This document shows, one piece after another, positions 26,369-27,837 of a DNA stretch of 64,000 nucleotides. The notes beneath the pieces are model-generated. The model saw nothing but the letters and a program-made list of their open reading frames with translations, was not told the origin of the DNA and ran no database searches. The position numbers were made by a program, and so were the translations under genes. Origin of the DNA: Mucilaginibacter sp. (lineage in GTDB: Bacteria; Bacteroidota; Bacteroidia; Sphingobacteriales; Sphingobacteriaceae); contig JAQBOA010000041.1 of NCBI GenBank assembly GCA_028288305.1, positions 124,001-188,000 on the forward strand, given 5' to 3'. How positions within the stretch are numbered: the stretch's first letter is position 1; the number at the start of each line of letters is the position of its first letter.

Positions 26369-26890
26369 CTACCAGCTATAGGCATCTTCGTTCATCCATT
26401 TGCCCTGTACTTTCAGCACTTTTTCAATTACATCCCTAACGCAGCCTTTACCACCTGCATAGGGAGAAACATACATACTTACCGCTTTAATCTCTTCAAC
26501 TGCATCGGCAGGACAAACCGGCAGGCCTATTATTTTCATTACCTCCAATTCGGGAATATCATCGCCCATGTATAAAACATTTTCATGGATAATACTTTTT
26601 TCCTCCAGGTAATTTTTGACTTTTACTATTTTGGTATGGATTCCCATATAAACATCTTGCACCCCCCAGCCATTTAATCTGTAAAGTGCACTTTTTGACC
26701 TGCTTCCCGAAACAGCGCAAACATTATAGCCGCACTTAACAGCCAGTTGTATAGCGTATCCATCCTTTATATTAAAGGCTCGGCTTTGCTCACCGCTTTC
26801 AGTTACAAAAACGGTCCCGTCCGTTAGTACACCATCCACATCAAAAATGAAAGTGGTTATATCTTTTAATTTATGTAAGAATGATTCCAC
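26369..26890 (-). CDS. kdsC: KdsC-like HAD phosphatase
   Basis: 173 aa; TTFIFDVDGVLTDGTVFV, AVSGSRS, GDDIPELEVMKIIGLPVCPADAVEEIK. Confidence 0.88.
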   Translation of the reverse strand: MESFLHKLKDITTFIFDVDGVLTDGTVFVTESGEQSRAFNIKDGYAIQLAVKCGYNVCAVSGSRSKSALYRLNGWGVQDVYMGIHTKIVKVKNYLEEKSIIHENVLYMGDDIPELEVMKIIGLPVCPADAVEEIKAVSMYVSPYAGGKGCVRDVIEKVLKVQGKWMNEDAYSW

Positions 26891-26950
26891 AGATTATATT
26901 ATGATTACACTGATTATATATTCAAGATTTCACCGATTTTTTTTATATCC

Positions 26951-27216
26951 CTAAGGGAATACTTTATAAATATCCTTTCGATGTATCACGCGAACAAATT
27001 CAATAATATTATTTTCAACGAAAAGGCCAATTCTATAATCACCAATTCGTATTCTATATGCAGTTAGATGTCCTTTAAGTTTTTTAATGTTTTTAATTTC
27101 AGATAAGAAGTTAGCCTTCTCCACTTGTTCAATTATATCAGAAATGTCTCTTTTGATTGAGGCTTGATTGAGTTTATCCAATCTTTTAAAAAGCGTCCGG
27201 TAAATTCAGTAATCAT
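26951..27216 (-). pseudogene. RelE-family toxin split by a -1 frame change (frameshifted or recoded)
   Basis: ATG at 27216 reads MITEFTGRFLK then leaves the toxin frame; -1 slip at T_TTA_AAA (27190-27184) continues as RLDKLNQASIKRDISDIIEQVEKA...YRIRIGDYRIGLFVENNIIEFVRVIHRKDIYKVFP. The ORF track shows only the second part, from a TTG at 27181. Confidence 0.8.
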
Positions 27217-27217
27217 T

Positions 27218-27415
27218 TTAAGAGTTAAGCTTTTTCATAACTTCTTCCCGTGATACTTTTTCATTACGGTCAACTTCCTTCATCATCATTAATAAGCCAA
27301 AATCTTCTTTTTCATCTTCAGTAATTACTTTTGATGAAATGTTCATCCTTTGCAGAAGATCGGTAGTGAACTTAGCTTCATCTTTTGATTTCGGATTAAT
27401 AACTATGCTTTCCAT
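27218..27415 (-). CDS. Antitoxin-like protein of the RelE module
   Basis: 65 aa MESIVINPKSKDEAKFTTDLLQRMNI...VSREEVMKKLNS; TAA is 1 nt upstream of the toxin ATG. Confidence 0.7.
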   Translation of the reverse strand: MESIVINPKSKDEAKFTTDLLQRMNISSKVITEDEKEDFGLLMMMKEVDRNEKVSREEVMKKLNS

Positions 27416-27432
27416 TTAACAAATTTAATCAA

Positions 27433-27474
27433 CTAATTTTAGATTACACAGATTATTGAAGTGATTTCACTGAC
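27433..27474 (+). repeat. Intergenic repeat (GATTACACAGATTA...GATTTCACTGA)
   Basis: tagattacacagattattgaagtgatttcactgac; related copies at 26888-26945 (same orientation) and 27781-27836 (inverted). Confidence 0.75.
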
Positions 27475-27758: not shown

Positions 27759-27837
27759 TTTTTATGTTAAACTTTATATGGTTTAATCTGTGTCTTTATA
27801 ATCAGTGAAATCAAAATTTAATCGGTGAAATCACTTA

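Follow-up and report, generated by a model that had tools for sequence, protein, structure and literature searches.

In this work we describe a degenerate RelBE type II toxin-antitoxin locus in a 64,000-nucleotide stretch of Mucilaginibacter sp. DNA (hereafter, the window), in which, at a probability of about 0.7, a recent single-base loss has disabled the toxin gene and left the antitoxin gene intact. As in sister species, the pair would have consisted of a toxin of 88 residues with a RelE/ParE fold, encoded in one frame, and a RelB-like antitoxin; as its family suggests, the toxin would be an mRNA interferase that the antitoxin restrains. Loss of one base near 27181-27178, immediately 3' to the conserved FLKD start, would then have put the toxin body out of frame, such that ribosomes starting at the ATG at 27216 would produce a 27-residue peptide before meeting a stop codon, and the antitoxin probably persists on its own. 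The features of the locus are as follows:

27415-27218, minus strand: intact RelB-like antitoxin open reading frame of 65 residues (71-77% identity to intact orthologous antitoxins)
27216-27133, minus strand: toxin N-terminus as read in frame 0, an ATG and 26 further codons followed by TAA
27190-27184, minus strand: T_TTA_AAA heptamer spanning in-frame Phe-Leu-Lys codons, incidental and absent from five orthologs
27181-27178, minus strand: best-supported place of the frame break, where one base is missing relative to intact orthologs (placement of a single gap)
27181-26951, minus strand: RelE/ParE toxin body in the -1 frame, carrying no further lesion (PF05016, 26.5 bits)

The split toxin gene and its orthologs

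Inspection of the sequence upheld the layout given in a preliminary description of this DNA. The antitoxin open reading frame (27415-27218) ends in TCT TAA and is followed by one A and then by the ATG at 27216-27214, from which frame 0 reads MITEFTGRFLKDWINSIKPQSKETFLI and soon reaches a stop codon (27135-27133), giving an open reading frame of 27 codons. The RelE body, RLDKLNQASIKRDI...YRIRIGDYRIG...KVFP, lies in the -1 frame and closes at a TAG (26953-26951), and T_TTA_AAA occurs in frame at 27190-27184 within a C-TTTTT-AAAA-G tract at 27193-27183. The frame-0 product contains the family N-terminus, MITEFTGRFLKD, the remainder being out of register. Read as one joined protein, the toxin matches the Pfam family PF05016 (ParE_toxin) at 32.1 bits, and the body alone, at 26.5 bits, likewise exceeds the cut-off of 23; the RelE/ParE superfamily toxin domain represented by PF05016 is therefore present, if not complete in one reading frame, and is interrupted at 27181-27178. 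In a scan restricted to the body, the score against the RelE_StbE subfamily TIGR02385 was 17.9 bits, under its cut-off of 27.9, and the antitoxin gave a weak, below-cut-off match to Pfam PF18506 (RelB-like; E 0.00036). The antitoxin lies directly upstream of the toxin with one base between them, as is expected of RelBE pairs, and the orthologs are arranged alike. By sequence, the closest solved relative of the toxin is RelE3 of Methanocaldococcus jannaschii (PDB 3bpq).

A relBE pair beside iscX and/or a gene for a KdsC-like phosphatase was found in six Mucilaginibacter species, the window included. The five sister-species orthologs come from genomes G122, G106, G119, G158 (Mucilaginibacter sp. 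OK098, whose locus was retrieved both as L027 and as L111) and G080; in G106 the pair adjoins the KdsC-like gene, and iscX is on a different contig. Four of the five (G122, G106, G119 and G158) encode the toxin in one uninterrupted frame of 88 codons. The G080 ortholog (L112, G080:C1:1876264-1876526), from a closed genome, has a toxin broken mid-gene in an A-run, at a different site from that in the window, and the end of its antitoxin has been altered by another indel, which indicates that toxin has been lost repeatedly at the relBE locus beside the iscX/KdsC-like genes. The window's own frame break is thus conserved in none of the five, four being continuous and one broken elsewhere, and T_TTA_AAA is likewise absent from all five, in which the equivalent positions are spelled TTTCTGAAA, TTTTCAAAA, TTTCTTAAA, TTTTCCAAA and TTTTTAAGA. 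Four continuous, heptamer-free orthologs are the very outcome that the preliminary description had associated with an error or a simple pseudogene, rather than with recoding of the toxin.

The toxin body in the window carries no second lesion and resembles its orthologs as closely as intact copies resemble one another, with identities to the orthologs of 64-75% for toxins and 71-77% for antitoxins. These features suggest that the loss is recent; put more strictly, the break would be recent at most, or would not exist in the organism at all. In the latter case the toxin would be intact in the cell, and one base would have been dropped from the assembled sequence. Such a consensus error, which we regard as somewhat unlikely, would be in keeping with a draft assembly of 109 contigs that is 90.7% complete, as well as with a toxin of normal ortholog identity that bears a single lesion. 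It accords less well with the location of the break outside any long homopolymer, or with the 24 kb of the window that could be compared with relatives, among whose genes no other frame break was found. The latter result leans towards a real mutation, in which case toxin function would probably have been lost.

The intergenic spaces flanking relBE and iscX also hold a cluster of six copies, with at most one mismatch, of AATCNGTGNAATCA (26882-26938, 27441-27454 and 27800-27833), against 0.51 expected by chance in 64 kb. Similar copies occur on other contigs of the same genome and beside the sister-species relBE orthologs, and AATCNGTGNAATCA is an intergenic repeat.

Position of the break and weight of the heptamer

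To locate the break, we tried a single gap at every position of the window toxin, scoring each placement by its number of matches to the four intact orthologs. The score is highest, at 757-760, with the gap at 27181-27178, as against 747-750 within the heptamer. By this alignment the break lies beyond the 3' end of the heptamer and does not touch the T5A4 tract, and frame 0 accordingly stays in register up to and including GAT, the codon for Asp next after the heptamer. In one of its two readings, the preliminary description had attributed the lesion to base loss within the A/T homopolymer; gap placement moves that loss to 27181-27178. We also considered transcriptional slippage and rejected it, given how short the T5A4 tract is and that the break maps elsewhere.

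The second possibility raised in the preliminary description was programmed -1 frameshifting, by which slippage at T_TTA_AAA (27190-27184) would yield a small amount of full-length toxin. In its favour, frame 0 presents the heptamer as an X_XXY_YYZ motif, what follows is in the -1 frame, and the alignment of the joined protein with relatives needs no gap; even so, we consider this reading highly improbable. The orthologs conserve neither the break nor the heptamer, the break maps 3' of the slippery site, and the residue at the junction fits a slip poorly: residue 12 is Asp in 100 of 130 intact homologs and Arg in one; in the window it is Asp as read by frame 0, but would be Arg if ribosomes slipped at the heptamer, and a profile of the intact homologs favours the Asp version by 3 bits. 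No significant stimulatory structure emerged downstream, the pseudoknot-free predicted fold of the following 81 nt having a z of -1.17 and its first hairpin, of 6 bp, abutting the heptamer with no spacer.

Furthermore, the heptamer itself carries little information. Its Phe-Leu-Lys codons form part of an F-x-K-D start common in the family, and T_TTA_AAA is a natural spelling of the family F-L-K motif in AT-rich codons; its presence here is incidental. Among intact relE relatives it occurs 14 times in 11,330 codons, which gives a chance expectation of about 3% over the 24 codons where the two frames overlap; the window's long open reading frames contain 20 in 15,395 codons. For any X_XXY_YYZ heptamer, the chance of occurrence in this overlap is about 24%. 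At least 11 other relE loci among those fetched are frame-changed, with shifts of both signs and mostly without a heptamer, and inspection of the broken genes L112, L186, L200, L124, L127, L201, L203, L213 and L055 revealed no common slippery site. More generally, 12 of 131 intact relE genes contain T_TTA_AAA, so that in AT-rich genes little weight can be given to a slippery heptamer lying in frame close to a break. One of the broken genes, a more distant relE relative (L127, G140:C150:27817-27948), has a -1 type break with an in-frame A_AAA_AAC in the overlap of its frames.

The mapped position also bears on a further explanation, in which translation would begin internally at the TTG at 27181-27179 and yield the body as a toxin of 76 residues, without its first strand. 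This codon is located right at the break, and the frame that it would open continues to the natural stop. However, the upstream start codon is the one from which every intact ortholog begins, an internally initiated product would be without the conserved N-terminus, and the TTG occupies the position of the family's Leu13, such that we give internal initiation hardly any credence. The preliminary description had left two readings side by side, of which a fresh frameshift or sequence error is supported and programmed frameshifting, given the junction residue and a break 3' of the heptamer, is not.

relE genes beside tRNA-His

A separate lead emerged from two orthologous relE genes on the minus strand adjoining tRNA-His (gtg), L123 (G074:C33:6191-6456) and L122 (G130:C349:7475-7740). 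Both have a -1 break at an in-frame T_TTA_AAA within ATGCAGGNTTTAAAAC, the two breaks falling in one short stretch. Identity between the toxins is 59% in the N part and 82% in the C part, with no stop in either part; because synonymous sites are saturated, dN/dS could not be computed. Such constraint is hard to reconcile with a shared old pseudogene, and points either to a recoded site or to independent breaks in the same short stretch. This pair makes a stronger case for toxin recoding than does the locus in the window, and, if production by programmed -1 frameshifting at the conserved T_TTA_AAA were true of it, toxin dose would be set by recoding. We nonetheless judge this unlikely. The family profile favours base loss in the Gly codon just upstream of Phe-Lys over a slip (by about 1 and 4 bits), a loss at that codon creates the heptamer automatically, and several other relE copies break in the same region.

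A third copy beside tRNA-His (L239, G106:C52:110983-111171) retains an intact antitoxin that shares 68% identity with its G074 counterpart, and has a toxin cut by deletion to its first eight or so codons, indicating that toxin loss recurs at the tRNA-His locus. Searches across the family and the order did not add a third gene with a broken frame to the pair L123 and L122, and the intact relatives were no closer than about 52%. A scan of viral contigs likewise found nothing resembling the tRNA-His relE, and a plasmid search recovered one intact distant homolog, from Chryseobacterium. Just past the relE stop codon in L122 (G130:C349) lies a copy of the tRNA-His 3' end (GTGGGTTCGAGCCCCATC), which suggests that relBE may have arrived here by integrating into the tRNA gene.

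Comparison with known systems

Programmed -1 ribosomal frameshifting at X_XXY_YYZ sites is familiar from genes such as dnaX and the transposases of insertion sequences. The locus in the window resembles these in having an in-frame heptamer of this form in the overlap of two frames, but differs in that neither site nor break is conserved, no significant stimulatory structure is predicted and the break lies outside the heptamer. In a limited search of open papers, we came across no account of programmed frameshifting being used to make a RelE-type toxin. To count a frame transition as programmed, one genome-wide survey demands a conserved frameshift site (PMC3711429), and the window locus is without one. 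For the co-translation of mazEF, a -1 frameshift has been proposed that involves no slippery motif (PMC8749433).

A further likeness is to RelBE type II systems, of which RelE3 (3bpq) is the nearest solved example. Shared with these are the order of antitoxin then toxin, one base apart, and a RelE/ParE-fold body with conserved YRIRIGDYRIG and HRKDIYKVFP segments; the difference is that the putative toxin in the window is split over two frames. Also close are the Mucilaginibacter relBE pairs beside iscX and/or the KdsC-like gene, which correspond to it in neighbourhood and in the identity of both toxin and antitoxin, and from which it differs by their continuous toxin frame in four of five cases and by a T_TTA_AAA that none of them has. 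As found, the locus adds one more example to an already known kind of toxin-antitoxin locus, in which the toxin is broken and the antitoxin is kept.
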